Positions 5,599-61,941 of a stretch of DNA of 62,377 nucleotides are shown in pieces. Position numbers and translations under genes: made by a program. Origin of the DNA: Acidihalobacter sp. (GTDB taxonomy: Bacteria; Pseudomonadota; Gammaproteobacteria; DSM-5130; Acidihalobacteraceae). The stretch spans positions 1 to 62,377 of the forward strand of contig JALUXU010000030.1 of NCBI GenBank assembly GCA_027013225.1, in the 5' to 3' direction. Numbering within the stretch: position 1 is the stretch's first letter; each line of letters starts with the position of its first letter. The notes under the pieces were generated by a model. The model did not search any database and was not told the origin of the DNA. It was given only the letters and a program-made list of their open reading frames with translations.

Positions 5599-6233
5599 GC
5601 GCGTTTCCCCGCTGCTTGTCGGCGCGCGGCCTTCATGCGCGCGATGGTGTCTACGAATCGGATCGCTTCGGCTTCCATCTCCAGGGTGAGGCTGTGCACC
5701 TGCCCGCGAAAGTAGCGGTGAAAGATCAGCGCCGGAATGGCCACGACCAGACCTGCGGCTGTGGTGATCAGCGCCTGGGCGATGCCGCCGGCCAATACAT
5801 GCGGGTTGCCTACGCCTACCGTGGTAATGACGCTGAACACCTCGATCATGCCAAATACCGTGCCGAGCAGGCCGAGCATCGGCGAGATCGAGGCGATAGT
5901 GCCGAGAGTGTTGAGATAACGTTCGAGTTCGTGTACCACCTGACGTCCGGTTTCTTCGATGCGTTCTTTCATCTGTTCATGAGTTCGATGGCGGTTGCGC
6001 ACCCCGGTGGCAAGGATTTTACCCAGCGGCGATCCTTGCTCGATCTCCTGCAAGGCGGCCGCATCCATCTCTCCCGATCTGAGTTGCTTGAGCACCTGCT
6101 CCAACAAGCCGGGCGGCATGATCGATGAGCGGCGCAAACTCCAGAAACGCTCCAGAACGATGGCCATGGCAAGAATGGAGCCCAATATAATGGGCAACAT
6201 CATCCAGCCGCCGGACTTGATTATTTCCAACAT
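5595..6233 (-). CDS. MotA/TolQ/ExbB-type proton-channel protein
   Basis: A 212-residue inner-membrane protein with three membrane segments: residues ~10-30 (WMMLPIILGSILAMAIVLERFW), ~115-140 and ~155-180. Between the last two is the family signature TIASISPMLGLLGTVFGMIEVF. It would form the pentameric channel that works with the ExbD/TolR-type partner. The two overlap by ATGA. The choice between ExbB and TolQ cannot be made from sequence reading; the absence of tolA/tolB/pal nearby favours the ExbB naming. Confidence 0.87.
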   Translation of the reverse strand: MLEIIKSGGWMMLPIILGSILAMAIVLERFWSLRRSSIMPPGLLEQVLKQLRSGEMDAAALQEIEQGSPLGKILATGVRNRHRTHEQMKERIEETGRQVVHELERYLNTLGTIASISPMLGLLGTVFGMIEVFSVITTVGVGNPHVLAGGIAQALITTAAGLVVAIPALIFHRYFRGQVHSLTLEMEAEAIRFVDTIARMKAARRQAAGKRA

Positions 6234-6275
6234 ACAGTGCGACCCTCGGTACGAACTGGTGGCAAATGATACACG

Positions 6276-10902: not shown

Positions 10903-11664
10903 CTATTGTGGCGATGATGCTTCGGATCCATGATCTTCCACAGACGCCCTGTCTTTACGCTGCTGCATTCTCGCCAGCCCCCTTAGCAATTCACGGGTGC
11001 GCAGCGCACGCTGGCCAAGGTGGACGTCCAGCACCCTGCGCAGCAGGCGCTTGGCGGCCCGCCGCGTCGCGGAGTCGCTCCAGTCGCGCGCCGCGATAGC
11101 CAGACAGATATGTCCCAGCATGGCATTTTCCACCGTTTCCGGTATCTTTATCAGCCCCTGCCGGGGTTGATAAAGATACCAAAGGCCTGGATCAACGGCG
11201 GCGCCATCAAGGCATTCCTTGTCCAGCGTCAGGCCAAAGCCCAAGGCATCGAGCAGATCGAGCTCGAAATCGCGCAGTACCGGTTCGAGGGCCGCGGCCG
11301 CCTGCAGCCGCCTTAAGGCGTGATGGTAGATCGAGTAGACCGGCCCGCACTCATCGTGCCGCGCCAAGAGATTGAGTAGCAATTCATTGAGATACAAAGC
11401 CGCCGGCAAGATCGAAGCGGGAAGGCGCAACGGTTCGATTTCCTCGGCTCCAATAAGCGTATGCAACTCGCCACGCGGACTCCAGCGTAACTGCAAAAAG
11501 TGAAAGGCTTGCAGCACGCCGGCCTGGCCTTTACCCCGTCGGGCACCGCGCGCCACCAAACCCAGCCGTCCATGATTCGCCGTGATCACTTCGAGCAAAA
11601 GGCTGGTTTCGCGCCATGGGCGGGAATGCAGCACATAGGCTTCGTCCTCTTGTGCTTGGCTCAC
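10903..11664 (-). CDS. recO: DNA repair protein RecO
   Basis: RecO loads RecA on SSB-coated DNA in the RecFOR pathway. The 253-residue protein begins VSQAQEDEAYVLHSRPWRETSLLLE, giving the typical N-terminal OB fold (LVARGARRGKG), followed by the helical domain (LYLNELLLNLLARHD). I chose the GTG at 11664 because it forms a GTGA overlap with the era stop. The ~65 residues that could be added upstream are out-of-frame era sequence. The beta/gammaproteobacterial form lacks the zinc-finger cysteines. Confidence 0.9.
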   Translation of the reverse strand: MSQAQEDEAYVLHSRPWRETSLLLEVITANHGRLGLVARGARRGKGQAGVLQAFHFLQLRWSPRGELHTLIGAEEIEPLRLPASILPAALYLNELLLNLLARHDECGPVYSIYHHALRRLQAAAALEPVLRDFELDLLDALGFGLTLDKECLDGAAVDPGLWYLYQPRQGLIKIPETVENAMLGHICLAIAARDWSDSATRRAAKRLLRRVLDVHLGQRALRTRELLRGLARMQQRKDRASVEDHGSEASSPQ

Positions 11665-12590
11665 TTCGGTGCGTCCATCTCCAGCTTGTGTAAAAACCTC
11701 GGATCGTCCTGCCAGCCGGGGCGAACTTTCACCCATAGTTGCAAAAACGCCTTGCGGTCCACCAATGACTCTATGTTTCGCCGTGCTTGAATGCCGATCG
11801 CTTTCATGCGCGAACCGCCCTTGCCGATGAGAATCGCTTTTTGCCCCCCGCGCTCCACCCAAAGCGTCGCTTCAATGTCAACGAGATCCGCTCTTTCCTC
11901 GAAATGGTCGATGGTCACGGCCACGGCATAAGGCACTTCTTCACCCAATTGGCGCATGACGGGTTCGCGGATAAATTCCGCGCAGAGAAAGCGCAGGCTG
12001 CGATCGGTCAGTTGATCTTGCGGCCAGCATGCGCCATTTTCAGGCAAATGCGAAAGCGTGCGCTCCAACAAGCGATCAACGTTGGCGCCCTTGAGTGCGG
12101 AGATAGGGAAGATTTCAACAAAATCGTGTTTGGCGCCGATTTCCTGCAAAAAAGGAAACAAGTCCTCGCGCCGCGGCAAGCGGTCGATCTTGTTGATCAA
12201 CAACATGATGGGACGGCCTTCTTGCGCCAATGCAGAAAGGATGCGGTCTTCGGCCTCGCCCCATCGTCCTGCGGCTACCATGAACCACTCCAGATCCGCC
12301 TCGGCCATGGCGCTCATGGCGGCGCGATTGAGCGCCTGATTCAAAGCGCGCGCCTTGCGCATTTCATGGATACCGGGCGTATCCAGCAATGCCACCTGGC
12401 CCACCGGATGGTCGATGATGCCCAACAGCCGATGGCGGGTGGTTTGGGGTTTGGCAGCGGTGATCGCCAGCTTCTGCCCCAGAAGACGATTCAGAAGGGT
12501 GGATTTGCCCACATTGGGCCGCCCGATAATGGCTACGCTGCCACCGCGGCGGGAATCACTGATTTCATCTGTCAATGCCGTCTTCTCCAT
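11661..12590 (-). CDS. era: ribosome-maturation GTPase Era
   Basis: Era binds the 3' end of 16S rRNA and checks 30S assembly. The 309-residue protein has G1 GRPNVGKSTLLNRLLG, G2/G3 TTRHR...DTPGIHE, G4 INKIDRL, and a C-terminal KH domain with IGKGGSRMKAIG. The start ATG 12590 lies 26 bp inside the rnc 3' end; the longer frame upstream is rnc in another frame. The C-terminus KLEMDAPK stops at the recO GTG. Confidence 0.95.
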   Translation of the reverse strand: MEKTALTDEISDSRRGGSVAIIGRPNVGKSTLLNRLLGQKLAITAAKPQTTRHRLLGIIDHPVGQVALLDTPGIHEMRKARALNQALNRAAMSAMAEADLEWFMVAAGRWGEAEDRILSALAQEGRPIMLLINKIDRLPRREDLFPFLQEIGAKHDFVEIFPISALKGANVDRLLERTLSHLPENGACWPQDQLTDRSLRFLCAEFIREPVMRQLGEEVPYAVAVTIDHFEERADLVDIEATLWVERGGQKAILIGKGGSRMKAIGIQARRNIESLVDRKAFLQLWVKVRPGWQDDPRFLHKLEMDAPK

Positions 12591-13248
12591 CCAGACGTTG
12601 CAACGCCATCTCAGCAGCCGCCTGTTCGGCCTTGCGCCGACTACTCCCTGCCGCCTCGACTTCGATTCCAAGCGCCGCCACCTTGCAGCGAACACGGAAT
12701 GTCTGCCGGTGTGCCTGACCGCTGGTTCCCAGCAAGTGGTATTCCGGCAGGTCGAGATTGCGGCTTTGCAGGAACTCCTGCAGCCGCGTCTTGGGATCCT
12801 TCAGTGACTCCGCGCTGGGCAGATTCTCAAGACGCGCGCCATAGAGCGAAAGAATGAATTCGCGGGTGGCTTCCATGCCAAGAATAAGATAATGCGCGCC
12901 GATCAGCGCCTCCACGGTATCTGAAAGAATGGAATCACGACGATAACCGCCGCTTTTCAGTTCTCCTGATCCCAGGCGCAAATAATCGCCGAGCCGGTTT
13001 TCGCGGGCGATGGACGCCAAAGTTTCACGCCTGACCAGAGTGGCGCGAAAGCGGCTGAGTTCGCCTTCCTTGGCTTCTGGAAAACGATGATATAGCCACT
13101 CGCCAATCACCAGCCCCAACAGAGCATCACCCAGAAATTCCAGCCGCTCGTAGTTTTTTCCCGAGGCGCTGCGGTGAGTCAACGCCAGCTCAAAGAGCGG
13201 CGAATTCTTCAGCGCGGCAGGCAAGCGATCGGGAAACTTGGAACTCAC
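12565..13248 (-). CDS. rnc: ribonuclease III
   Basis: RNase III cleaves double-stranded RNA, including rRNA precursors. In 227 residues it has the catalytic signature YERLEFLGDALLGLVI at ~35-50, DTVEALIGAHYL at ~115, and a C-terminal dsRNA-binding domain (~155-222; KTRLQEFLQSR, SSRRKAEQAAAEMAL). It starts with GTG overlapping the DUF4845 stop by 4 bp. The order DUF4845-rnc-era is conserved. Confidence 0.96.
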   Translation of the reverse strand: MSSKFPDRLPAALKNSPLFELALTHRSASGKNYERLEFLGDALLGLVIGEWLYHRFPEAKEGELSRFRATLVRRETLASIARENRLGDYLRLGSGELKSGGYRRDSILSDTVEALIGAHYLILGMEATREFILSLYGARLENLPSAESLKDPKTRLQEFLQSRNLDLPEYHLLGTSGQAHRQTFRVRCKVAALGIEVEAAGSSRRKAEQAAAEMALQRLDGEDGIDR

Positions 13249-13646
13249 GGATAAGTCTGAGCAGAATTGTTCTTCGCAGGATAATGCACCGCGTAGGAGA
13301 AATAAAACAATCCATCGATGTTGGCGATGAGGTGCTGTTTGACCTGATACTTTACGCTCAAGGTCGTCTCATTACCCACCGTATTCATCTTCAGATCCTT
13401 ACAACTGACGGCGTTGATATTGTTGATCGTAAAGCGGTTGGTCAGATTATCGCAGATCTGCTGAAATCCCATGTGGCCGACATTGGGCGAATGGGCCAAT
13501 TCATTCATTACGGAACGCACATTGTAATACTGCAAATACACCGGCACGAGACGCACTGCCAAGGTGGCGACAATCCCCAGAAATGCCAGCACGAGCAAGG
13601 TGGAAATCAGCGAAAGTCCGCGCTGTTTTTTAGGTGATTTCATCAT
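13245..13646 (-). CDS. DUF4845 membrane-anchored protein
   Basis: A 133-residue protein with a basic start (MMKSPKKQRG), one membrane segment (LSLISTLLVLAFLGIVATLAV, residues ~10-32), and a pilin-like extracytoplasmic domain. It is the DUF4845 protein usually encoded between lepB and rnc. I prefer ATG 13646 because GAGGAT lies 4-5 bp upstream; an ATG at 13658 would add four residues. The GLSLISTLLVLAFLG segment resembles the hydrophobic helix of type IV pilin-like proteins. Function is unknown. Confidence 0.85.
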   Translation of the reverse strand: MMKSPKKQRGLSLISTLLVLAFLGIVATLAVRLVPVYLQYYNVRSVMNELAHSPNVGHMGFQQICDNLTNRFTINNINAVSCKDLKMNTVGNETTLSVKYQVKQHLIANIDGLFYFSYAVHYPAKNNSAQTYP

Positions 13647-13724
13647 CGATATCCTCATCGTTTTAATTCGAATGGTTCACCTTCTCAGTGTTCGCCTTCT
13701 CAGTGATGAATAGGGCTTTGCATC

Positions 13725-14615
13725 TCACTGCGGAATCGGTTTACCGATGCGCCCGAAGTTGATACGTCCATCATACCAATGCATCCAGATTACGAACGCC
13801 TGTCCGACCAGATTCCGCGCGGGCACAAATCCCCAATAGCGGCTGTCGAAACTGTCGTCGCGATTGTCGCCCATCATGAAATAGTGGTGGGGCGGCACGG
13901 TGACGCAGCCGTCTGGCACCGGCACGCCGGGCATGATCAAAATCTTGTGCTTGACCACCGTGCCGTCGCGACGAGGCAAGTATTCCGTCCATATCTGCGC
14001 GCCCTGCATCAAGTGATTCGGGCCTTCGCCCTTGTAGACGCCATCATAGACCTTTTTCACCAGCTTGCCGTCTATGTAAAGATCGTTGCCCTTGTAGCAG
14101 ATGTGGTCGCCGGGCAGACCGATTACGCGTTTGATGTAGTCTTCACCCGCCGAAGCCTTGACCTGTTGCATGCCCCCCAATAGCACGCAGGCTACGTCGT
14201 TTTCGCAGTATTTCACTGCTTCGCGTTCGGGGAACTTGAACACCACCACATCGCCGCGGCGAGGATGGCCCAGCGGAGCGATCAGCGTGCGCACGATGGG
14301 TAGGCGCAGACCGAAAGCGAATTTATTGACGAGGATAAAGTCTCCAACCAGCAGAGTGGGCATCAATGATCCCGAGGGGATGCGAAACGGCTCGGCCACG
14401 AAAGACCTGAGCAGCAACACGATCAGCAGGACGGGAAAAAAGGAGCGTGAATACTCGACGTACCAGGGTTCGCGATAGGCAGGCTGCCCGCCCTCTCCAT
14501 CGGCCTGAGCGACACGGGCCTTGCGGCGAGGTTTCAGCCACAGCGCGTCGATCAACCAGATCAGGCCGGTCACGAACACCGCAATGATCAGAGATAATTC
14601 CAGATCGAAACTCAT
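13725..14615 (-). CDS. lepB: signal peptidase I
   Basis: LepB removes signal peptides from exported proteins at the inner membrane. The 296-residue protein has two N-terminal membrane segments (residues ~5-22 and ~58-75), the catalytic serine in IPSGSLMPTLLVGD, the catalytic lysine in DYIKRVIGLPGD, and MGDNRDDSFDSRYWGFV. It is 37 bp downstream of lepA, the usual order. Confidence 0.96.
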   Translation of the reverse strand: MSFDLELSLIIAVFVTGLIWLIDALWLKPRRKARVAQADGEGGQPAYREPWYVEYSRSFFPVLLIVLLLRSFVAEPFRIPSGSLMPTLLVGDFILVNKFAFGLRLPIVRTLIAPLGHPRRGDVVVFKFPEREAVKYCENDVACVLLGGMQQVKASAGEDYIKRVIGLPGDHICYKGNDLYIDGKLVKKVYDGVYKGEGPNHLMQGAQIWTEYLPRRDGTVVKHKILIMPGVPVPDGCVTVPPHHYFMMGDNRDDSFDSRYWGFVPARNLVGQAFVIWMHWYDGRINFGRIGKPIPQ

Positions 14616-14652
14616 GGCAGGGTTCCTTGTTTTTTGAGTTATGAGTTGCTGC

Positions 14653-16455
14653 TTAATCTTCTACGCGCAGGACAGCAAGAAACGCCTCCTGCGGGATTTC
14701 CACTTTGCCGACCTGTTTCATACGTTTCTTGCCGGCTTTTTGCTTCTCTAGCAACTTGCGCTTGCGTGACACGTCGCCGCCATAACACTTCGCCAGGACG
14801 TTCTTGCGCAGAGCCTTGACGGTAGTGCGGGCGATGATGTGTGAGCCGATAGCCGCCTGAATCGCAACCTCAAACATCTGCCGCGGAATCAGCTCTTTCA
14901 TGCGTTCGATCAGCTCCCGCCCGCGGCTCTGGGCGACATCACGGTGCACGATCAGAGCGAGCGCATCGACCCGTTCGCCGTTGATCAGCACGTCCACCCG
15001 CACCAACGGCGCGGCTTGGAAGCGCTCGAGCTGATAATCGAATGAGGCGTAGCCGCGACTGACCGACTTCAGCCGGTCGAAGAAATCGAGCACAACCTCA
15101 TTGAGCGGTAGTTCATAACTCAATGAAACTTGCTTGCCGAGATACAGCATCTTGGTCTGCACCCCGCGTTTTTCCACGCACAGAGTGATCACCGCGCCCA
15201 CGTATTCCTGCGGCACCAAGATATTGGCGGTAATGACCGGCTCGCGAATTTCAACGATTTCGTTGACCGAGGGCAGATCGCTGGGATTGTGGATCTGGAT
15301 CACTTCGCCACGGGTGGTCTCCACCTCATAGACCACTGTGGGCGCGGTGGTAATGAGATCGAGACCGTATTCGCGCTCCAGGCGTTCCTGGACGATCTCC
15401 ATGTGCAACATGCCGAGGAAACCGCAGCGAAAACCGAATCCAAGCGCCTGTGAGGTTTCTGGCTCGTAGGCCAGTGCGGCATCATTGAGTTTGAGCTTAT
15501 CCAGCGCGTCTCGCAGATTGGAATAATCATCCGAGTCTACAGGGAAAATTCCGGCAAACACGCGAGGCTGGACTTCCTGGAAGCCGGGCAGCGGGTTTGC
15601 GGCCGGACGGTCGGCACCGGTGATGGTATCGCCTACGCGCGCGCCATCAATTTCCTTGATGCCGGCGATCACATAGCCCACCTCACCGGCTTCTAGCGTG
15701 TCGGTTTCGACCGGCTTGGGGGTAAAAATCCCCAGTTTGTCTATCTGTTGCAGCTTGCCGCTGGACATCATCTTGATTTTCTGGCGCGTCTGCATGCGTC
15801 CTGATACCACCCGCACCAGCGCCACCACGCCGACATAATTGTCGAACCAGGAGTCGATGATCAATGCCTGCAAGGGCCCTTCGCGGTCTCCTTGGGGCGG
15901 CGGTATGCGGGCCACCAGCGTCTCGAGCAATTCGGGCACGCCTTCCCCCGTCTTGGCGCTGATTTGCAGGGCATCGTGGGCCTCGATGCCTATAATCTCC
16001 TCGATTTCCTCGGCCACGCGTTCGGGCTCGGCGGCCGGCAAATCGATCTTGTTGAGCACTGGCACCACTTCCAGCCCCTGATCAATGGCGGTATAGCAAT
16101 TGGCCACGCTTTGCGCTTCCACTCCCTGCGAGGCATCGACCACCAACAACGCGCCTTCACAGGCAGCAAGGGAACGGGAAACTTCATAAGAAAAATCGAC
16201 ATGCCCCGGCGTGTCGATAATATTGAGTTGATAGACTTCGCCGTCGGCAGCGCGGTAATCCAGAGACACGCTTTGCGCCTTGATCGTAATGCCGCGTTCA
16301 CGCTCTATATCCATGGAATCAAGCACTTGAGCTGACATTTCCCGCTCGCTCAAACCACCGCAAAGCTGAATCAGGCGGTCGGCCAACGTCGATTTGCCGT
16401 GATCGATGTGCGCGATGATGGAAAAATTGCGTATATTCTTGAGAGGTTTTGCCAT
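14653..16455 (-). CDS. lepA: elongation factor 4 (back-translocating GTPase)
   Basis: EF4 acts on the ribosome and can reverse translocation. The 600-residue protein starts [23 protein letters not shown] and has [21 protein letters not shown], and the LepA-specific C-terminal domain ([22 protein letters not shown]). Start ATG 16455 gives the standard family length. The reading frame extends upstream to 16533 without family similarity. Confidence 0.97.
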
Positions 16456-16590
16456 TCGACAGGTTTGGTTTGCGTCAACGCCAAGGAGCCGATTATGACG
16501 ATAGACGCGGAAAAAGGCCATTGCCTCTGGCACAGTAGTCTATCTCTTGCCGGTAAAAACCAATGAAGGCGCCTTTTGTATCAGCCTCGG
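16456..16590. other. lepA-fliK intergenic spacer
   Basis: This 135-bp spacer separates the core lepA operon from the flagellar cluster. Both neighbours are on the minus strand, so it must hold the fliK 3' end signal and the lepA promoter. A GAAGGCGCCTTT self-complementary block near 16564 could form part of a terminator. I see no clear -35/-10 pair. Confidence 0.4.
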
Positions 16591-52493: not shown

Positions 52494-52860
52494 TTGACAT
52501 CCTCCCCGGCCTGAAGGCCGGAGATTCCTACGGCGCTCAGGTGCGGCTCGTGTTCCGGGGGAGCACGGCGATGAGATGCCCGCTGTTCCACGCCAGCTTG
52601 TAGTCCAGTTGGCGGCGGAACTCGAACCAGCCTTGATCGTGGATGGACTTGTTCAGGCCCGACTTGGCCCGAACGTTTCTTCCCGGCGCATCGGCCAGCC
52701 AGGCCGCTTCCGTGCTGTTGCGCCACTCGGTGAGCCGCTTGCACAGGCCCGCATAGCCGAGCCTCGATTCGCCCGCCTCGTAACGTTTCTTCTGCAAGTT
52801 CGGCGCCTTATTGAACACGAACCGGCACGAGCCAGCGAAGCGACGCACATGGCGCAGCCA
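52494..52860 (-). mobile_element. degenerate IS200/IS605-type element with deleted tnpB
   Basis: The left tip has the TGACATCCTCCCCGG end with the CCGGCC-TGAA-GGCCGG hairpin (52506-52521) typical of IS605/IS1341-type elements. The minus-strand frame carries two pieces of TnpB: an N-terminal piece (RRFAGSCRFVFNKA, KRLTEWRNS) and a RuvC-III-like piece (KSGLNKSIHDQGWFEFRRQL, ending NTSRT). About 180 residues between them and the zinc finger after them are missing. It cannot encode an active RNA-guided nuclease. Confidence 0.75.
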
Positions 52861-53370
52861 GGCATCGAACTGGCGTGAGGCAGAAAAACCCTCCGGCGTG
52901 TTCATTGCACGCAAGTTGTGAAAACCGAGGCCACTGCCGATGATGAGTACGCCTTCTTTTCGCAAAGGCGCGAGGGCGCATCCCATGCGGAAATGGAATT
53001 CAGGATCCATGCCTACGTCCAGGAAAATCTGTACGACAGGCAGATTTTCTTCTGGATAGAGCGGTTTCATCGGGCTGAATGTGGCATGATCAAATCTTCG
53101 AAGCAGATCAAGTTGCGCCGGAATACCCGCGCTATCGAGCATGACGCGGATCCGCTCGGCGAGCGCCGGATCGCCGGGCCCGCGATAAACAATATGGTAG
53201 GTTTCCTCGGGAAAACCTTGATAGTCATAGATCATGCCGGGATGTGCTCCGGAGGAAATTTTCACGCCCCGCGTTTCCCAATGGCCGCTGATGACAAGGG
53301 CAGCGCGAGGCTGCTCAGCGAGCTCTCGCCGCCTGTCGATCAAAGATTTTCCAGGCGATCGAAATTGTGG
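52861..53370 (-). pseudogene. extradiol dioxygenase (DODA/LigB type), truncated at both ends
   Basis: About 165 residues of a class III extradiol ring-cleavage dioxygenase: VISGHWETRG and IGSGLGFHNLR retain two metal-binding histidines, and YDYQGFPEETYHI is conserved. The N-terminal HGSPM-type segment with the first metal ligand is absent: the frame begins directly after a stop beside the 34-bp inverted repeat. The C-terminal ~80 residues are replaced in frame by TnpB remnants, giving a fused frame 52537-53370. It is probably inactive. Confidence 0.7.
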
Positions 53371-53371
53371 C

Positions 53372-53451
53372 TAGACATGATGTTTTGACCTGCCCATCCT
53401 CAACGATCGTGGGTTACCGTTGAGGATGGGCAGGTCAAAACATCATGTCTA
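53372..53451. repeat. perfect 34-bp inverted repeat around a 12-bp loop
   Basis: The left arm (53372-53405, beginning TAGACATGATGTTTTGACCT) and the right arm (53418-53451) are exact reverse complements with a 12-bp loop ATCGTGGGTTAC. The arms include TGACCTGCCC, which resembles the tips of some IS3-family (IS407-group-like) elements. It joins the truncated dioxygenase to the two-gene operon. It might be a MITE-like hairpin, paired IS ends, or a rearrangement scar. Confidence 0.9.
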
Positions 53452-53456
53452 AGCGG

Positions 53457-53774
53457 TCATTTACCGCTATGATTGTTGCGGTCACGGCCAAAACCCGCCA
53501 CCAACAACTCCCCCAGCGCATTGGGCAGGGCATCGATGATATACCGCCGGTCCCGGTAGCGGATCCGGTATTCGATCAGCACCAGGTTCAGCCTGTCCTC
53601 CCGGATGATGCGTTCCAGGATGCGCAGCTTTTCGGGCATGTCGGTCTGTTCCCATTCCATCGAACCCTTGTCGAACAGGGTGCGCAGTGTCCGGTGGGTC
53701 CAGGCCGCTTCCTGGGGAGCGAACAGCGCGTCCATGCGCGCCTCATAGCCGGGGCTGGTTTCGGTTTCACTCAT
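53457..53774 (-). CDS. hypothetical protein, second gene of a two-gene operon
   Basis: A 105-residue soluble, charged, helix-rich protein starting MSETETSPGYEARMDALF, with WTHRTLRTLFDKG and a strongly basic stretch LIEYRIRYRDRRYIID. I do not recognise it. Its ATG overlaps the stop of the preceding gene by 8 bp, so the two are translationally coupled. The longer frame to 53831 is the shadow of that gene. It ends 6 bp before the inverted repeat. Confidence 0.65.
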   Translation of the reverse strand: MSETETSPGYEARMDALFAPQEAAWTHRTLRTLFDKGSMEWEQTDMPEKLRILERIIREDRLNLVLIEYRIRYRDRRYIIDALPNALGELLVAGFGRDRNNHSGK

Positions 53775-54228
53775 GGTTCTCTCCACTTGAAGTATCGCGT
53801 CCGGGGCGCTCGCCTGCCAGGTGCCGGGCATAGCGGATGGCGGCCTGCCTTCGCTGCACCAGGGTATCGATGCAGGGCACCAGGGGATAGGCCTGCTCCA
53901 GGCGGTCGAGGCAGTCGGTCAGAAGGGGATCATGGCGACGGCGGCGCCAGTCGGTAAACACCAGGGGACAGGGGCCGATCGGCGCCAGCGGTCGGGCGGT
54001 GCCGAAATTGTCGGCGCCGAGGTCCCAGTGGTATTCCATGAACAGACTGGGCTGCGGCCCGACCTTGTAGCGGGAGATCACGAAGCCCCGCTCGGCCGCG
54101 ATCCAGATGCCGACATAGGCATTGTTCGCATCGATCCGGTAGGCGTGGCCGTCGATGAGTTCGATCATGGGCAGCCAGGCGCCTTCCTTGCGCTTTTGCC
54201 GGAGATACCGGGTCAAGGCGTCGGGCAT
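53767..54228 (-). CDS. hypothetical protein, first gene of the operon under the TGCGACA palindrome
   Basis: A 153-residue soluble protein starting MPDALTRYLRQKRKEGAW with a beta-rich core (GHAYRIDANNAYVGIWIAA, FVISRYKVGPQPSLFMEYHW). A good AGGAGA site lies 8 bp before ATG 54228. I do not recognise the family. The palindrome at 54279-54297, the same as that in front of the WYL regulator, lies about 50 bp upstream, so it should be in the WYL regulon. With the 105-residue partner it may be an effector or accessory unit of the module. Confidence 0.68.
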   Translation of the reverse strand: MPDALTRYLRQKRKEGAWLPMIELIDGHAYRIDANNAYVGIWIAAERGFVISRYKVGPQPSLFMEYHWDLGADNFGTARPLAPIGPCPLVFTDWRRRRHDPLLTDCLDRLEQAYPLVPCIDTLVQRRQAAIRYARHLAGERPGRDTSSGENHE

Positions 54229-54278
54229 CTTGGTGTCTCCTGATCGGCCGGGAACATGACCCTATTACGGCACAGGCA

Positions 54279-54297
54279 TGCGACAGATCCTGTCGCA
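54279..54297. promoter_or_regulatory. palindromic operator, copy 1 (upstream of the two-gene operon)
   Basis: TGCGACA-GATCC-TGTCGCA, a perfect 7-bp inverted repeat with a 5-bp spacer. It starts 51 bp upstream of the 153-residue protein's start and immediately follows the WYL gene's stop. The identical half-sites recur at 55342-55360. Confidence 0.75.
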
Positions 54298-54301
54298 TGT
54301 C

Positions 54302-55300
54302 TCAATCGCGATAGCGCCCCAGGGTTTTCGAGAGCACGGCCATCAGCTCGCGGCGCAGCGCGACGGGCCGTTCGACACAGACATGCTCCCCCAGCCCGAG
54401 CAGCCACCAGCGCAGCTGGGCCGTGTCCTGCACGGTGGCGCTGAGCAGCGCCCCGTCCTCCTGCCAGCGCACCTTTTGATCCTCGCTCAGGGGCGTCTCC
54501 AACAGGTGCTGGACTGCCGCATGGCTGAACCAGGCGCGCAGCCGGATGCGCTTGCCGACCGGGTAGTCGAATTCGCCGGCGCGCACATAGGCATCGAGCG
54601 AGAAGCCTTCCGGCACATGCACCGGCCGATCGCTCGGCTCGGCCGACAGGATGCGGTGCAGGGCGAGCTGCCGGATGTCGTCGTAGTCCCAGAGGCTGGC
54701 CACCAGATAGACCAGGTTGTCGCGGAACACCAGGCCATGCGGGCTGACCTCGTATTCGCTGGGCGCATCGTCCCTGGCCCCGCGGCGCCGGTAGCGGGCG
54801 ATGAAGCGCTGCTGGCGGAACAGGGCCTCGTACACCACGTCCGCCACCCCCGGGGACAGGCTCGGGGGCAGCAGGCGCTGGCGGCCGGGGATGACCGCGA
54901 TGCGCTCGCGCCAGGCGCGGTAGGCCGAGTCGCCCTGATCAGCCAGCACCCCCTCGGCACGCCGGAAATAGGGCTGCAGGAAGCCGACGATGTCGGGCGG
55001 CAGCAGCCGTGTTGCATGCTCCTCCATCACCTTCAGGGCGAGGGCGGCGCGCGGCGCCATCACCGGCATGCCCTGCTCCTCGGCCTCCCGCTCCCAGGAC
55101 CAGCCGTGCGGCCTGCTGCGGTCGTCGCACACCAGGGGAAAGACGGCGGAGAGCTTCTCCAGGTCGCGCTGCACGGTCCGCTGGGTCGTCTCGAAGCCCA
55201 GCTCTGCCAGCTGCCTGCGCAGGGTGCCGGTGTCAATCCGGCGCGGCGCGCGCGGGATCATCTGAAGCATGCGGATCTGGCGAAGGGTGGTGTCGGACAT
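54302..55300 (-). CDS. WYL-domain transcriptional regulator (BrxR/CapW-like)
   Basis: A 332-residue regulator starting MSDTTLRQIRMLQMIP. A winged HTH lies at ~5-65 (TGTLRRQLAELGFETTQRTV, RDLEKLS). A WYL domain lies at ~180-265 (FIARYRRRGARDD, NLVYLVASLWDYDDIRQLAL, HRILSAE), followed by a WCX-like C-terminal domain. Regulators of this shape repress phage-defence operons and sense nucleic acids or nucleotides. It is divergent from the DUF262 operon and flanked on both sides by TGCGACA-N5-TGTCGCA. The frame upstream of 55300 only reads the antisense of the leader repeat. Confidence 0.88.
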   Translation of the reverse strand: MSDTTLRQIRMLQMIPRAPRRIDTGTLRRQLAELGFETTQRTVQRDLEKLSAVFPLVCDDRSRPHGWSWEREAEEQGMPVMAPRAALALKVMEEHATRLLPPDIVGFLQPYFRRAEGVLADQGDSAYRAWRERIAVIPGRQRLLPPSLSPGVADVVYEALFRQQRFIARYRRRGARDDAPSEYEVSPHGLVFRDNLVYLVASLWDYDDIRQLALHRILSAEPSDRPVHVPEGFSLDAYVRAGEFDYPVGKRIRLRAWFSHAAVQHLLETPLSEDQKVRWQEDGALLSATVQDTAQLRWWLLGLGEHVCVERPVALRRELMAVLSKTLGRYRD

Positions 55301-55338
55301 GGGCGGATGGCGGTTTGCGCGAGGAAATCCTGCTCGCA

Positions 55339-55367
55339 GGATGCGACAGAAAATGTCGCAAATCAAG
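55339..55367 (-). promoter_or_regulatory. putative promoter of the WYL gene overlapping operator copy 2
   Basis: On the minus strand TTGATT, a 17-bp spacer, then CATCCT gives a weak sigma70-like pair about 40 bp upstream of the WYL ATG. The palindrome TGCGACA-GAAAA-TGTCGCA (55342-55360) fills the spacer, so binding would block polymerase: an autorepression layout. Confidence 0.5.
55342..55360. promoter_or_regulatory. palindromic operator, copy 2 (WYL-DUF262 divergent region)
   Basis: TGCGACA-GAAAA-TGTCGCA, with half-sites and spacing identical to copy 1 and a different spacer sequence. It lies in the 165-bp divergent region between the WYL start and the first leader repeat. Conserved arms with a varied centre are what a dimeric repressor site looks like. 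Confidence 0.78.
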
Positions 55368-55402
55368 GGCAGACTGGCCCAAGATACTCGCGACAGAGCG
55401 AA

Positions 55403-55549
55403 CACGGGCGTATCATCCTGCCCGCAGCCATCGCCAGGAACTATCGACCGGCCCGGAGAACACGCATGTTCACGCACGACAGACTGAAAGACCGCCACCG
55501 CGAGATCCGCGACGGACTGCCGCAGGCGGTCTCGCTGCGCATCCACCGG
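55403..55549 (+). repeat. 147-bp direct repeat, copy A
   Basis: This block matches 59125-59271 over its full length with 3 mismatches. It contains 63 bp of non-coding leader plus the first 28 codons of the HEPN-type gene. Copy A lies directly downstream of the operator-bearing promoter region; the two copies bracket the DUF262 gene pair. Confidence 0.95.
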
Positions 55550-55624
55550 CAAGGCAAACCGGATGCCGCAGAGCATTGCATCGATCGCCGTTCGATGGGG
55601 GCCCACGATCTGAAACAAGGTTGA
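55466..55624 (+). CDS. truncated HEPN N-terminus, 52-codon leader ORF
   Basis: It starts MFTHDRLKDRHREIRDGLPQ, matching the first ~28 residues of the HEPN-type protein (differences at Gly17 and Ile26), then diverges into KPDAAEHCIDRRSMG and stops at 55624. It has the same GGAGAA ribosome site as the intact gene. Its TGA ends 3 bp before the DUF262 ATG, so ribosomes finishing it could re-initiate there. It may be a mere remnant or a coupling leader peptide. Confidence 0.6.
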   Translation: MFTHDRLKDRHREIRDGLPQAVSLRIHRQGKPDAAEHCIDRRSMGAHDLKQG

Positions 55625-55627
55625 TGA

Positions 55628-57103
55628 ATGTCGATTGATGCACTGCAACACAAGAAGGAACAAGCGGAAAAACAATCCATGTCGAATAGCCTGCAATCTC
55701 AACCGGATCAACAACAACACGAATCGACCGACCAAACACCCAACTTGTGCCCATCCGATCGCAATGGCCGGGTTGTCAAGGTTCGGGATCTGATTACCGC
55801 CGCTGGCCTCTCCATCCCTGAGTACCAACGCCCCTATAAATGGACCGTTGAGAACGTCGCGACCCTGCTCAACGATGTAAAGCAGGCGTGCCGCGAAAAT
55901 AAATCCGCCTACCGTCTGGGTACGGTGGTCTTTCACCGGGAAGGTCGCTCTCTACATATCGTCGATGGACAGCAGCGCATTGTCACCCTATTGCTGATTG
56001 CCAAGGTGATGAGCGCTGTTTCTGGCTCCCTTGACAAGGCTCAGGTGAAAGAAGTGATGCAAGGGATCCAGCTCACTGGCGGGATTTCAGCGAACAATGT
56101 TGCCAACAATCTCCGACTGATCAGACAGCGGCTGGTGGAGAATGGTGACTTTCCCGAAGATGCACAGAAATATCTTCTCGATAAATGTGAGCTGGTGGTC
56201 TTTTGTCTCAACAAAATCTCCGAGGCCTTCCAGTTTTTCGATTCACAGAACGCCCGTGGCCGCCCCTTGGAGCCCCATGACCTGCTGAAGGCCTATCACC
56301 TGCGTGCATTCCAGGAGAGCGATTCCGAAACCAAGAAAAAGGCAGTAGAGAACTGGGAAAAGGTCCCGACAGAGGATCTGGCGAGGCTGTTCTCCGATTA
56401 CCTCTATCCCATCCGAAGCTGGTGCCGCGGGCTACCCGTGGGGCAATTCTCCAAGGACCACATCCATCTGTTCAAGGGGATCGATCCCGAAAAGAACGAC
56501 TATCCATTGGGCCACCCGTACCAGATTATCGAGAACCACCTGAACTTTTTGGAACGTTGTCTGCACATCACGGGCAACACCGTTGAATACCCCTTCCAGC
56601 TCGATCAGCCGATCATCAACGGAAGGCGCTTTTTCGAGATGGTCGACCATTACTACGAGAAATTCGAGCCCCTCAGCCAGGGGGGAAAATGGGCTTCTAT
56701 CATGGATCGCGGCAATGGATGGGCTAAAGAGATTCTCGACAGACTGGATGATTACGAAGGACGGAGAAGAACCGGCGACCGCTATGTTCGCCAGATGTTC
56801 GATTGCCTATTGCTCTACTATCTCGACAAATTCGGGGAACAGGAGCTCGACGACGCGGTTCGCAAAATCTTTCTCTGGGCCTACAGCGTTCGACTGAGGC
56901 AGCAAAGAGTTCAATTCTCCACTATGGAGCGCCATGCGCGAGAGGAACACAATCTCTTTCAGCGCTTGCGTGACGCCGTTACGCCGGATGCCTTATTGGC
57001 CTACAACCGGCTAAAGCCGATAAAAGCGGCAGAGATTCAATCCACAAAGACCGAAGACATCAAAACCCTGATGCGCAAGCTGGGCCACGTCGTCGAAAAA
57101 TAG
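55628..57103 (+). CDS. DUF262 (GmrS-like) protein without HNH domain
   Basis: A 491-residue protein. After a ~45-residue polar, Gln-rich N-terminus comes the DUF262 domain (ParB/Srx-like NTPase fold; IPEYQRPYKW at ~60, LHIVDGQQRIVTLLLIAK at ~115, FFDSQNARGRPLEPHDLLKAY at ~205). The (D)GQQR motif is the NTPase signature of GmrSD/SspE/BrxU-type defence proteins. The C-terminal half is helical; I see no DUF1524 HNH motif. Start alternatives are ATG 55628 and ATG 55679. It is followed after 13 bp by the second DUF262 gene. Confidence 0.85.
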   Translation: MSIDALQHKKEQAEKQSMSNSLQSQPDQQQHESTDQTPNLCPSDRNGRVVKVRDLITAAGLSIPEYQRPYKWTVENVATLLNDVKQACRENKSAYRLGTVVFHREGRSLHIVDGQQRIVTLLLIAKVMSAVSGSLDKAQVKEVMQGIQLTGGISANNVANNLRLIRQRLVENGDFPEDAQKYLLDKCELVVFCLNKISEAFQFFDSQNARGRPLEPHDLLKAYHLRAFQESDSETKKKAVENWEKVPTEDLARLFSDYLYPIRSWCRGLPVGQFSKDHIHLFKGIDPEKNDYPLGHPYQIIENHLNFLERCLHITGNTVEYPFQLDQPIINGRRFFEMVDHYYEKFEPLSQGGKWASIMDRGNGWAKEILDRLDDYEGRRRTGDRYVRQMFDCLLLYYLDKFGEQELDDAVRKIFLWAYSVRLRQQRVQFSTMERHAREEHNLFQRLRDAVTPDALLAYNRLKPIKAAEIQSTKTEDIKTLMRKLGHVVEK

Positions 57104-57116
57104 AAAGGTGGAAACC

Positions 57117-59099
57117 ATGAGTAAAGATAGCGTGACAAGCTTGACGATCGGGCAGCTGTTGAGCCTGTCTGATGGCACGGGCTACCGGATCCCCATCTAT
57201 CAGCGTAATTATGCCTGGGGCGAACCGGAAATCGAGCAGCTGGTTCGCGACTTGGCCGACAATGCTAATAAAGGAGCTGGCGGACACTATTATCTTGGCA
57301 CGCTCGTGGTCCATAGCAACACGGAAAACGAGCCTTATGATGTCATCGATGGCCAACAGCGCCTGACTACACTCTTCCTCATTGCATCGACCCTGAAACG
57401 AAAAACGGGGAATACTCAGGCCATGCCAACGAAAGGAATACTGACCTTCGAATGCCGGGAAAAGGCCAACCAGACACTTCAGGCCATTCGGGAGGGACAC
57501 AAAGAGAACGCCGAAAATCGGGATACCGGGATACGAGCGGGCTACCAGACGATAGAAGGCCATTTGTGTCATTGGCTGAACGATGCGGGTTGCGACCCGG
57601 ATGATTTTTGCAAATACCTCATGGATTCGACCGTGATTCTGCGCGTCGAGGTGCCTAAGGACGCCGATCTCAACCGGTATTTCGAGGTCATGAACACCCG
57701 GGGCGAACAACTGGAAAAACACGAGGTGCTGAAGGCCCGCCTATTGAACGCTTGCGACGAGAAAAAGCGGCACGGATTGAGCAGGATCTGGGACGCCTGC
57801 GCGGAGATGGATCGTTACGTCCAACTGGCGTTCACTCCGGAAGAAAGAGACGCCTTGTTTGGCGCGGACTGGCATACCTTTTCGCATGAAAAGCTGGATG
57901 AACTTGTTTCTCCATTGACTAACGGCGAATGTACGCAAGGAACAAACGCAGACCGGCCCAACCTGTGGGATTTGGCAGAGGGAAAAGCTGAAGGCGCTTC
58001 CAATAAGGAGAAACGGGACAAGCAAGACAGCGGTCGTTTCCGCGCCATCATCGATTTCCCCAATTTCCTGCTCCAGGTGCTGTGCGTCTTCGTCAGAAAA
58101 AAAGAAGAATTGCCCGATGACGGACTCCCATTGAATGACAAGTCGCTTATCGAGACGTTCGACCAGTATATCCTTGAGAAAGAGGATTCGGCGCAGCGTG
58201 TGAAGGATTTTTTCTATCACCTTCTGAAATGCAGGTTCCTCTTCGACCAGTATGTGATCAAACGCGAAGGGGATGTTCAGGAAGGGGAATGGCGGCTATA
58301 CAGGGGCCACAAGGAGAAAAGTGGCCTTGGGTACAAAAAAGTCTTTTCAGAGGATCAGGGTAATGATGTCAATCGCCAGATCCTGATGCTGCAATCGGCC
58401 TTTCAGGTCTCGTCGCCATCGCATAGCTACAAATACTGGCTGCACGCGGCGATGGTGTGGCTGGAGGACAGAAAGGCGGAAAAAGGCCCTATTCAGGGCA
58501 CAGAATACCTAGAATACCTCGAGTCAGTCGCCGTTTCTTTCGTCTTCGATCGTTATCTGAAAAGAGAGAAGCCACTGGATTACAAGAAGATCATCCATGA
58601 TAACAAGGGTGTCTGCCAGACGGGCGAGCTGACTGTGGACCGGGGTATGCTGCGTTACGGAGAAATCCGCAACAACCTGATCTTCAATTGGTTGGATTAT
58701 CTGCTCTATTTGAGAGATAAGGAATCGGACACGAAGATCAAACAGTTCCGATTCAAGTACCGCAGCTCCGTGGAGCACTATTACCCGCAAAACCCGATAG
58801 GTGAACAACAACTGAGCGAAGATTGCCTGCACGATTTTGGCAATCTGTGCCTGATCAGCCATAGCAAGAATGCCAAGCTCAGCAACTATTCCCCGGAAGC
58901 CAAAATGGAACATTATGGCAAGCAGTCTGACATAGACAGCATCAAGCAGTACTTGATGATGAAAAAAACCAAAGCAAAAGGATGGGGGCAGGAGCAGATC
59001 AAGTCCCATTACGACGAGATGAAAGAGGTGCTGGAGACGGAATCGGGCAAGATCAGGCGCCGCCAGGCGCAGAACTCTGCCTCCGGTGGCGGGTCGTGA
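57117..59099 (+). CDS. DUF262-DUF1524 (GmrSD-like) HNH nuclease
   Basis: A 660-residue protein. The N-terminal DUF262 domain has IPIYQRNYAWGEPEIEQLV, DVIDGQQRLTTLFLIA and FEVMNTRGEQLEKHEVLKA. The C-terminal DUF1524 HNH nuclease region has SVEHYYPQNPIGE and HDFGNLCLISHSKNAKLSN. This is the full GmrSD/SspE architecture: nucleotide-sensing domain plus DNA-cutting domain, used against modified or foreign DNA. ATG 57117 has an AAAGGTGG site 5 bp upstream; a GTG three codons earlier also opens the frame. It probably works with the HNH-less partner just upstream. Confidence 0.88.
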   Translation: MSKDSVTSLTIGQLLSLSDGTGYRIPIYQRNYAWGEPEIEQLVRDLADNANKGAGGHYYLGTLVVHSNTENEPYDVIDGQQRLTTLFLIASTLKRKTGNTQAMPTKGILTFECREKANQTLQAIREGHKENAENRDTGIRAGYQTIEGHLCHWLNDAGCDPDDFCKYLMDSTVILRVEVPKDADLNRYFEVMNTRGEQLEKHEVLKARLLNACDEKKRHGLSRIWDACAEMDRYVQLAFTPEERDALFGADWHTFSHEKLDELVSPLTNGECTQGTNADRPNLWDLAEGKAEGASNKEKRDKQDSGRFRAIIDFPNFLLQVLCVFVRKKEELPDDGLPLNDKSLIETFDQYILEKEDSAQRVKDFFYHLLKCRFLFDQYVIKREGDVQEGEWRLYRGHKEKSGLGYKKVFSEDQGNDVNRQILMLQSAFQVSSPSHSYKYWLHAAMVWLEDRKAEKGPIQGTEYLEYLESVAVSFVFDRYLKREKPLDYKKIIHDNKGVCQTGELTVDRGMLRYGEIRNNLIFNWLDYLLYLRDKESDTKIKQFRFKYRSSVEHYYPQNPIGEQQLSEDCLHDFGNLCLISHSKNAKLSNYSPEAKMEHYGKQSDIDSIKQYLMMKKTKAKGWGQEQIKSHYDEMKEVLETESGKIRRRQAQNSASGGGS

Positions 59100-59124
59100 A
59101 TCGCTGCCAGCCCGACCGGACCAG

Positions 59125-59271
59125 CACGGGCGTATCATCCTGCCCGCAGCCATCGCCAGGAACCATCGACCGGCCCGGAGAACACGCATGTTCACGCACG
59201 ACAGACTGAAAGACCGCCACCGCGAGATCCGCGACGAACTGCCGCAGGCGGTCTCGCTGCGCACCCACCGG
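59125..59271 (+). repeat. 147-bp direct repeat, copy B
   Basis: The second copy of the repeat at 55403-55549 (3 mismatches). Here it is continuous with the complete HEPN gene, so this is the ancestral reading-through copy. The distance between equal points of the two copies is 3722 bp. Confidence 0.95.
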
Positions 59272-59841
59272 GCCCTGAGCTGGCTGCGGCGCGCCGACGC
59301 GGAGCAGGCGGATGCCGATGCCCGCTTCATCTTTCTGTGGATCGCCTTCAATGCCGCCTATGCCAACGAGATCCACGACCGGGCCAGCTTCGGCGAGCGG
59401 CGCCTGCTGACCGCTTTTCTGCAGCACCTGACCGAGGTGGACGGGGAGCAATTGCTCTATCGGACCGTCTGGGAACAGTTTCCGCGCGCGATCCGCCTGC
59501 TGATCGACAACCGCTACGTGTTCCAGCCCTTCTGGGACTACAAGAACGGCCGGCTGGACGAGGCGGAATTGCAGCAGCGCTTCCAGGCCAGCAAGGAGGC
59601 CGCCTACCGCGCCCTGGGGCGCATGGACACCAAGAAGGTCCTGGCCATCGTGTTCGGCCGCCTGTACGTGCTGCGCAACCAGTTGGTCCACGGGGGCGCC
59701 ACCTGGAACAGCAAGGTCAACCGGGACCAGCTGCGCGACGGGGTGGACATCATGGCCCGCCTGGTGCCGATCATCATCTATCTCATGATGCAGCATCCCA
59801 AGCGTTTTATCGGCGAGCCCTGTTATCCGGTAGTCGACTGA
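59188..59841 (+). CDS. HEPN-domain protein, putative RNase effector
   Basis: A 217-residue helical protein starting MFTHDRLKDRHREIRDELPQ. It has ADARFIFLWIAFNAAYANEI at ~50-70 and a C-terminal YVLRNQLVHGGATWNS with the HEPN Rx4H motif (R-NQLV-H), which in active family members forms an RNase site. It resembles the Apea/MAE-type HEPN proteins found with defence genes. The ATG 59188 has a GGAGAA site. It is the last gene of the DUF262 operon or has its own promoter in repeat copy B; no operator palindrome precedes it. Confidence 0.75.
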   Translation: MFTHDRLKDRHREIRDELPQAVSLRTHRALSWLRRADAEQADADARFIFLWIAFNAAYANEIHDRASFGERRLLTAFLQHLTEVDGEQLLYRTVWEQFPRAIRLLIDNRYVFQPFWDYKNGRLDEAELQQRFQASKEAAYRALGRMDTKKVLAIVFGRLYVLRNQLVHGGATWNSKVNRDQLRDGVDIMARLVPIIIYLMMQHPKRFIGEPCYPVVD

Positions 59842-60168: not shown

Positions 60169-61760
60169 TCACTCATTTTCGAGCGGAGCGACCTCCAGGC
60201 CCGGATACGAGATCCGCTGCATGGCCTGAAGCAGCCGCTGCACCGAAAAGCTGCCGCCATACCGCCGCCCCATCTTGTGGGGGTTGCTATGCCCCATAAG
60301 GGCATCGGCTATCTCTTCGTCCAACCCAGCCTCACGGCAGGCATCGCGGAAGGTGTGGCGAAAGCTGTGGAACACCTTGCGCTTGTCTGTGATGCCAAGC
60401 TCCTTGCGCAGGAAGCGCATGAAGGACTTCGAAAACCCGGCCGACCATTTGCCGAAGCGGTCGGGGTGGAGGTCGGGGAACAGGCGCTCGGCCCCCTGGT
60501 TCCGGATGCGTTCCACATACCGCAGGAAGCCTGCCTCGATCACCTTCGGATGGATCGGCAGGCGGCGCCGCGATGCGGTGTTCTTGAGCCGCTTGGCGGT
60601 ACCCTGTTCGCCCGGCATGTCGTCGATCACCAGGCACCAGACGTCGTCGATGCATTGGATGTCGGTCACAAGCAGTTGGGCAAGTTTTTCCACACGACAG
60701 CCCTGATAGAGCGCAAGGAGCGGGATCCAGCGGCCCGCATCGCGCACGCCGCGTCCCAGATTCTTCCGCTCGACAAACAGCGGTGACTGGAAAATCTGGC
60801 GCAGGTCCCTCTGGTCGAACGGCAGGCGGTGACGGCTGTCGCTTTTGGGCGTCGGGATGCGCTGGGCGGGGTTCTTGTCGAGCTTGCCGTTGTTGATGCC
60901 CGTGTTGAACAGGGCGCAGATGAGGGTGATCTTTTTATTCACGGTCTTGGGCGCCAGTCCACGGCCGATGAGTTCATCCCGGTAGCGGATGACATCCGTT
61001 CGCTCCACCCTGTCGGCGGCCTTCTGCCCGATGACAGACAGAAAATCATTGAGCGTCCGCCGCACATCATCGACGGTCCGCTGGGGGCGATTCGGGTCGA
61101 ATCGCTGCCAGTCCTCGAACAGCTCATCGAAAGTAACGTGCCCCGGCTGGGCCGTGGCTAGGCGTGAGGTCTCGGGCGGCTCGGGCGTCCAAACCACCTC
61201 GCCTTGGTCGCGGGCGATCTGCTGGTCGTGCACCTCGGTCACGGTCTGCAAGAACCGGTACAGCAGCTCCCGGTATCGGGACTCGTCACCACGCAGCTCG
61301 ATCCCAAGCAGGTGCAGGAATCCGGCCAGAGCCGGTTCCACTGCCTCGATGCGGGCGTCGGCCAGTATTTCCCGCAGGGCGTCACGGGTCTCGTGGCGCT
61401 CTGCCTTGCGTTCCTCGCGCTCAGTTCGGAAGGTACCTTCGCGGCGGTCGTATTCGTCCGTGGCGAGCGCCTGGTGCCGCCACAGGGCGCAGATCTCGGC
61501 GATCAGGGCATCGTCGATGACCAGCACCTTCTTGGCGCCCTGCCGCCGCTCGATCTCTTTACGTAAACGATGGCAACGGGCATCGAAGTCCACAGAGGCC
61601 TGCCGGGCGAGCTGCCGGGCCTCGACTCAATCCCGGGTGCGCAGCAAAACTTCTCCTCGGTCTTGCCGAGGTACGGGCGGAGATCACGCGGAATGCGCGC
61701 ACGGAAATAGTAGGTGGAATTGCGTTTGAAAAGGCGTGTTTGCAGGGTCATGTTCGTCAT
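60169..61760 (-). pseudogene. tyrosine recombinase/integrase with frameshift and in-frame stop
   Basis: The catalytic part is intact: R in CRVEKLAQLL, HSFRHTF, the H of MGHSNPHKMG, and Y in RRYGG. The N-terminal DUF6538-type segment MTLQTRLFKRNSTYYFRARIP starts at 61760 or 61751 but is in another frame. Restoring the usual KFSLRTRD motif needs one base near 61645, and a TGA at 61627-61629 then interrupts it. A GTG at 61591-61593 could start a 474-residue protein lacking the first ~55 residues, so partial function is not excluded. The gene points away from the tRNA-Ser 90 bp upstream. Confidence 0.85.
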
Positions 61761-61848
61761 CCCGGTGGACCACCTCGGTGTACCAGACGAACATGTATAA
61801 CCACCGGCCGGCGGTTATTTGTAACACATTGAAAGAGTTACGTAAATA

Positions 61849-61941
61849 TGGCGGAGAGGGTGGGATTCGAACCCACGTGGGGCGGTAATGCCCCCAACCG
61901 ATTTCGAGTCGGTGCCGTTGTGACCGCTTCGGTACCTCTCC
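61849..61941 (-). tRNA. tRNA-Ser (CGA)
   Basis: On the minus strand a 93-nt class II tRNA with acceptor GGAGAGG/CCTCTCC, anticodon stem-loop ACCGA-CTCGAAA-TCGGT (anticodon CGA), a long variable arm (GGGGGCATTACCGCCCC), TpsiC arm GTGGG-TTCGAAT-CCCAC and an encoded 3' CCA at 61849-61851. Its 3' end faces the integrase, the usual geometry for an island att site. A direct repeat of the 3' end marking the other boundary was not found by eye in the window. Confidence 0.95.

Follow-up and report, generated by a model that had tools for sequence, protein, structure and literature searches.

A WYL Gene between Two Identical Palindromes

The window, the whole 62,377-nucleotide stretch of Acidihalobacter sp. 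DNA that was analyzed, includes a minus-strand gene (54302..55300) coding for a 332-amino acid WYL regulator with ArgR-like winged helix-turn-helix (HTH), WYL, and WCX domains. The Pfam matches (WYL, 1e-14; WCX, 1.1e-13; Arg_repressor HTH, 7.6e-4, the last being weaker than Pfam's own cut-off) identify the protein as an HTH-WYL-WCX transcription regulator. Two genes of no known family follow on the same strand. The first codes for 153 amino acids (53767..54228) and its start is common to the related locus L024, found in a Sedimenticola MAG; the second codes for 105 amino acids (53457..53774), overlaps the first by 8 bp, and is conserved in L024. The 153-amino acid protein has a partial match in one of 273 other genomes of the class, and a search for plasmid relatives found none. 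AlphaFold models made without an alignment were unusable for both the WYL protein (pLDDT 37) and the 153-amino acid protein (pLDDT 45).

Three genes on the plus strand are located at the other side of the regulator. The first two code for a type IV restriction-like GmrSD_N (DUF262) plus DUF7834 protein of 491 amino acids (55628..57103; GmrSD_N 5.8e-28, DUF7834 9.4e-70) and a GmrSD_N plus GmrSD_C protein of up to 663 amino acids (57108..59099; GmrSD_N 4.2e-32, GmrSD_C 1.1e-13). The third codes for a 217-amino acid HEPN-type protein (59188..59841) about 50% identical to plasmid proteins annotated as HEPN. With the GmrSD pair and the HEPN gene, the regulator has a defense-gene neighborhood of the kind in which BrxR and CapW are found.

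Other features were observed around this module. An inverted repeat with perfect arms of 34 bp and a 12-bp loop lies just to its left (53372-53451), next to an open reading frame (52537-53343) that fuses part of a LigB dioxygenase with TnpB-like (IS605 OrfB/Cas12f-like) pieces and is apparently a gene cut by a TnpB-like element. On the right, the position of a tyrosine recombinase gene beside tRNA-Ser(CGA) (60169-61941) suggests a genomic island integrated at the tRNA gene; a search of the window for a repeat of the tRNA 3′-end, which would mark the other end of the island, found none.

The WYL gene is flanked by two copies of the palindrome TGCGACA-N5-TGTCGCA, 1,063 bp apart, and the coordinates and perfect arms given in the initial annotation were confirmed. 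Box A (54279..54297; TGCGACA-GATCC-TGTCGCA, TGCGACAGATCCTGTCGCA) is 4 bp past the WYL stop codon and 50 bp short of the next start codon, while box B (55342..55360; TGCGACA-GAAAA-TGTCGCA, TGCGACAGAAAATGTCGCA) is between the two divergent genes and precedes the WYL start codon by 41 bp. Both are candidate operators to which no strand is assigned, and they differ in their spacer bases. The next-best match in the window has three mismatches, and the two boxes are the only exact sites in the whole genome (2,266,240 bases). Nine further genomic sites have two mismatches, a number near background, as the reversed motif used as a control has six sites at up to two mismatches and no exact site; all eight of the two-mismatch sites that were examined overlap open reading frames of at least 100 amino acids. 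Across 369 genomes of the class, 12 exact sites of the motif were found and five of the reversed control. An exact site is therefore expected about 0.01 times per genome, and two of them within 1.1 kb around one regulator are not a product of chance. Thus, the earlier claims that such a pair is unlikely to be accidental and that a genome scan would find few other promoter matches were both borne out, the latter by the lack of any other exact site in 2.27 Mb.

The initial annotation had also placed box B in the spacer of a possible WYL promoter. This proposal was not upheld, as a consensus scan found no sigma-70-like promoter in the region 54150-55700, and an overlap of the boxes with RNA polymerase contacts therefore cannot be demonstrated. 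No intrinsic terminator was called in the same region. This result bears on the idea that box A forms an RNA hairpin following the WYL gene, as a terminator or attenuator, and that its likeness to box B is coincidental. Box A has a suitable position for such a role, 4 bp past the stop codon, and could fold into a stem of 8 bp with a loop of 5 bases. However, it lacks a T-run, box B and boxes at distant loci have the same letters, and the downstream box of one of these loci (L084) has an unpaired arm position (TGCGACA...TGACGCA), which is worse for a hairpin than for an operator. The idea, which we consider very improbable, was rejected.

The Segment between Box B and the HEPN Gene

The GmrSD pair occupies a 3.7-kb segment bounded by two direct repeats of 159 bp that are about 95% alike. 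The left copy (55391..55549, plus strand) starts 30 bp beyond box B, and the right copy (59113..59271, plus strand), which has no box, comprises the leader and the 5′-end of the intact HEPN gene. A remnant open reading frame of 52 codons (55466..55624, plus strand) corresponding to the 5′-end of the HEPN gene terminates 3 bp before the first DUF262 start. The Sedimenticola locus L024, which matches the window over 2,063 and 725 bp (96% and 93% identity), has the HEPN gene directly divergent from the WYL gene with box B between them and has no GmrSD genes; it also includes box A and counterparts of both small genes. Another locus, L025, carries the same GmrSD insert, and its DNA is 99.8% identical to the window, i.e., it is the same lineage. 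As read from these sequences, an insertion placed the GmrSD pair between box B and the HEPN gene, the ancestral divergent partner of the WYL gene, and captured the HEPN leader and first codons; box B now precedes the inserted genes. Box B would thus have controlled the HEPN gene first and the GmrSD pair later. The operon of DUF262 and HEPN genes that the initial annotation had placed under WYL control is accordingly composite and was not one ancestral unit, as shown by the 159-bp repeats and the organization of L024.

The pairing of HEPN and WYL genes is recurrent, since relatives of the HEPN gene are close to WYL genes on alphaproteobacterial plasmids (L094, L102, L104) and homologues of both genes are found within 13 kb of each other in three genomes (G057, G110, G116). 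The box is absent from most of the loci of HEPN homologues.

The locus is mobile, with an integrase gene at tRNA-Ser and a repeat-bounded insertion, and the palindromes might be taken for boundary repeats of a mobile element, left by recombination or insertion. Nevertheless, the GmrSD insertion does not use the boxes. Boxes at other loci are in gene-start regions 40-200 bp from the WYL gene, with unrelated flanks, and loci with a single box are common. A role as recombination sites was rejected as extremely improbable.

The Palindrome beside Other WYL Genes

A scan of genome contigs for close homologues of the WYL protein found L024 and L025 only, and none were found in viral contigs. Since the WYL protein of L024 is 95% identical to that of the window, its boxes alone are weak evidence, and L025, at 99.8% DNA identity, was not counted as independent. 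Distant homologues, 28-46% identical to the window protein, were gathered by protein similarity alone, and 35 were kept after removal of near-identical upstream regions, loci that had been found through the motif, and close relatives. Eight of these 35 carry the motif with up to two mismatches in a region that covers 250 bp of upstream DNA and the first 30 bp of the gene. When the half-site letters were rearranged in 629 other orders as controls in the upstream region at the same stringency, the mean was 0.027 and the maximum two. Up to 200 bp behind the gene, the motif with one mismatch at most was present at two of the 35 loci (permuted mean, 0.0016). About half of the WYL homologues have no recognizable copy within 250 bp upstream. 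The initial annotation would have abandoned its proposal if the motif were common throughout the genome or missing from the flanks of homologous loci; neither was the case, as the motif is rare in the genome and is present beside the eight distant homologues.

The strongest single result came from a de novo scan, because it is independent of the sequence of the window. All 1,024 half-sites of 5 bp, with spacers of 1-12, were searched in the 150 bp upstream of the homologues. GCGAC-N7-GTCGC and its register variant CGACA-N5-TGTCG were common to five loci, while all other palindromes were present in two loci at most; the only one at two, TGCGA-N9, was again the same motif. The motif is the only palindrome that clearly recurs upstream of WYL homologues.

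Counterparts of box B are located upstream of the WYL genes of L024, L040, L042, L047, L052, L076, L077, L098, L121, L123, L124, and L130, and counterparts of box A behind those of L024, L084/L126, L131, L085, L097, and L104. The half-site letters are constant while the spacers vary among loci, as expected of protein recognition. Box B, together with the enrichment across homologues, provides the palindromic putative operator near the regulator's own start that is characteristic of BrxR and CapW. At L046 (genome G087), a related palindrome, GCGTCA-N5-TGACGC, was observed about 37 bp before the WYL gene with the same change in both half-sites, and the WYL protein has a different recognition helix (TARRNTQRDL); together, these changes possibly reflect a shift in operator specificity.

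The search was also carried out in the reverse direction, from exact sites to WYL genes. In 149 genomes of the order of genome G638, 11 exact sites were found and none of the control. A WYL gene of this clade was present within 1.5 kb of the site at six of the ten exact-site loci examined from that order and at two of the ten other-genome loci examined from the 369-genome set, i.e., at eight of 20 in both sets together; three of the loci (L121, L123, L124) belong to a single family and are only partly independent. In genome G030, an exact site is about 5.4 kb from a WYL gene, in an island that also codes for a PDC-S26-like nuclease and a GmrSD_N protein.

The arrangement box-WYL gene-box, with 1,061-1,063 bp between the boxes, is shared by the window, L024, G638 (L084/L126), and G823 (L131), the second box having one mismatch in G638 and two in G823. 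The spacing of about 1,062 bp thus recurs in two unrelated loci, G638 and G823. WYL homologues are found beside BREX, Druantia III, GmrSD, and PDC-S26 genes. At L085, an exact box separates the WYL gene from a VasI-like gene, after which come brxA, brxB, and brxC (BREX). On a Marinobacter plasmid (L097), an exact box is located behind the WYL gene, and the genes for a metallophosphoesterase and for DruH (Druantia III) come after it. On another plasmid (L098), an exact box is located 144 bp before a Citrobacter WYL gene, and at L104 a box with two mismatches is 59 bp behind the WYL gene, ahead of an operon that includes a homologue of the HEPN gene of the window.

Two of these loci have further features. 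In L131 (7736-8991), the gene that follows the second, two-mismatch box behind the WYL gene codes for a 397-amino acid FtsZ/tubulin-like GTPase, a possible and unexpected target. L024 has a second WYL gene (5609-6616), 41% identical. GCGACG-N5-TGTCGC lies 26 bp upstream of the start of this gene, and a long AAA ATPase-like open reading frame is alongside; the island thus has two regulators of the clade.

A conserved site beside a gene does not by itself identify its binder, and the boxes could be operators of a different, host-encoded regulator for which the WYL gene is just one target. However, the site tracks this WYL clade in different families and orders and on plasmids of different hosts, while a host regulator would be expected to have a wider regulon and not to travel with plasmids; the rest of the genome has no exact site. 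This explanation is improbable and was rejected.

Putative Operators and Known WYL Systems

The presence of the same palindrome beside distant WYL regulators located next to other defense genes indicates that it is very probably the binding site of the WYL protein itself. We assign a probability of about 0.86 to the reading that the palindromes are operators of the protein from the WYL gene that they flank. As in the case of BrxR, the two half-sites are separated by roughly one turn of the helix and would be contacted by a homodimer. Autocontrol through box B and control of the two small downstream genes through box A appear to be the natural reading of the layout. Box B would act on the WYL gene as well as on the opposite unit, originally the HEPN gene and now also the GmrSD pair. 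The earlier proposal that the regulator controls itself and the two-gene unit gains support from the position of the boxes, which recurs in L084 and L131.

The WYL protein would be a repressor that keeps costly defense genes at low levels and is released when the WYL domain senses a ligand, e.g., single-stranded DNA. By analogy to BrxR and CapW, repression with release by a ligand is probably the mode of action. The alternative is that the boxes are sites of the WYL protein but that this protein acts as an activator like DriD or PafBC, its nearest solved relatives by profile. The profile of the clade matches the WYL-WCX region of DriD-type proteins (2e-17) and PafBC (3e-15) far better than that of CapW (8e-5) or BrxR (1e-3 to 1e-2), and no strong sigma-70 promoter was called near the boxes, as in activator-dependent promoters. 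On the other hand, the divergent organization of regulator and defense genes and the two boxes with 5-bp spacers match those of the BrxR and CapW repressors (PMC9122601, PMC9122588), and a dimer bound at a distance of 41 bp from the start codon could obstruct transcription, which is consistent with repression. We consider activation somewhat unlikely. For these reasons, the profile matches and the lack of a called promoter, we hold repression to be probable, given that the boxes are operators of the WYL protein, but with less confidence than the operator assignment.

More tentatively, TGCGACA-N5-TGTCGCA might be a clade-wide operator code for WYL regulators down to 33% identity, through which unrelated co-resident islands (BREX, Druantia, GmrSD, and HEPN modules) are cross-controlled as one defense regulon. 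We think this doubtful, although if it were true, L090, with three boxes in 11 kb, L099, where a second WYL gene has a box nearby, and L024, with its two WYL genes, would be examples of it. If the operator assignment is right, a short, searchable DNA sequence ties a broad WYL clade to its target operons, gives a concrete operator for binding tests, and predicts the targets of defense regulators that have not been studied. The motif could also flag unrecognized defense genes, such as the two behind box A, and the GmrSD cassette would represent a defense module landing under the control of an existing regulator.

The known system with the closest organization is BrxR from the Escherichia fergusonii plasmid pEFER, a WYL regulator in a phage-defense island for which repression has been shown; R-BOX1 is located before the regulator gene and R-BOX2 towards its 3′-end, before the defense operon, both with 5-bp spacers (PMC9122601). 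The window shares with it a WYL regulator in a defense island, two inverted-repeat boxes with 5-bp spacers, and a GmrSD-type enzyme in the island. In contrast, the boxes of pEFER have 11-bp arms of another sequence, and the sign of regulation, shown there, is inferred here. A blastp comparison of the two proteins found no significant similarity (best E 1.4), and TGCGACA-N5-TGTCGCA was not found at up to two mismatches in positions 11000-16500 of pEFER. BrxR from Acinetobacter NEB394 is a winged HTH-WYL-WCX dimer with half-sites 5 bp apart and base contacts at positions ±6 and ±7 (PMC9122589), which in the window boxes fall on the central G and C of the GCGAC core. Its operator, ATACCGTAAA-N5-TTTACTGTAT, differs from the window palindrome, and the protein is remote from the window clade (profile E 0.015). 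The window regulator is therefore outside the BrxR family proper, both by sequence similarity (blastp E 1.4 and weak WYL-domain profile matches) and by operator, as the pEFER and Acinetobacter sites are different. CapW of CBASS is a divergent WYL regulator of defense genes that binds palindromes of 19-24 bp as a homodimer (PMC9122588). The window regulator is likewise divergent from defense genes, although the systems are different and the proteins are remote by profile (8e-5).

DriD and PafBC are the closest solved relatives over the WYL-WCX part. In the literature, both are described as activators of DNA-damage genes with single-stranded DNA as a known ligand; unlike the window regulator, they are not encoded in defense islands. 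A search of the literature available without subscription found no earlier report of TGCGACA-N5-TGTCGCA as a WYL operator. A WYL regulator paired with two boxes of 5-bp spacing in a defense island is already known from BrxR of pEFER, and it is the operator letters and the clade that differ. As a new case of an established mode of control, the locus is well supported, and the comparative evidence for it is unusually clear.
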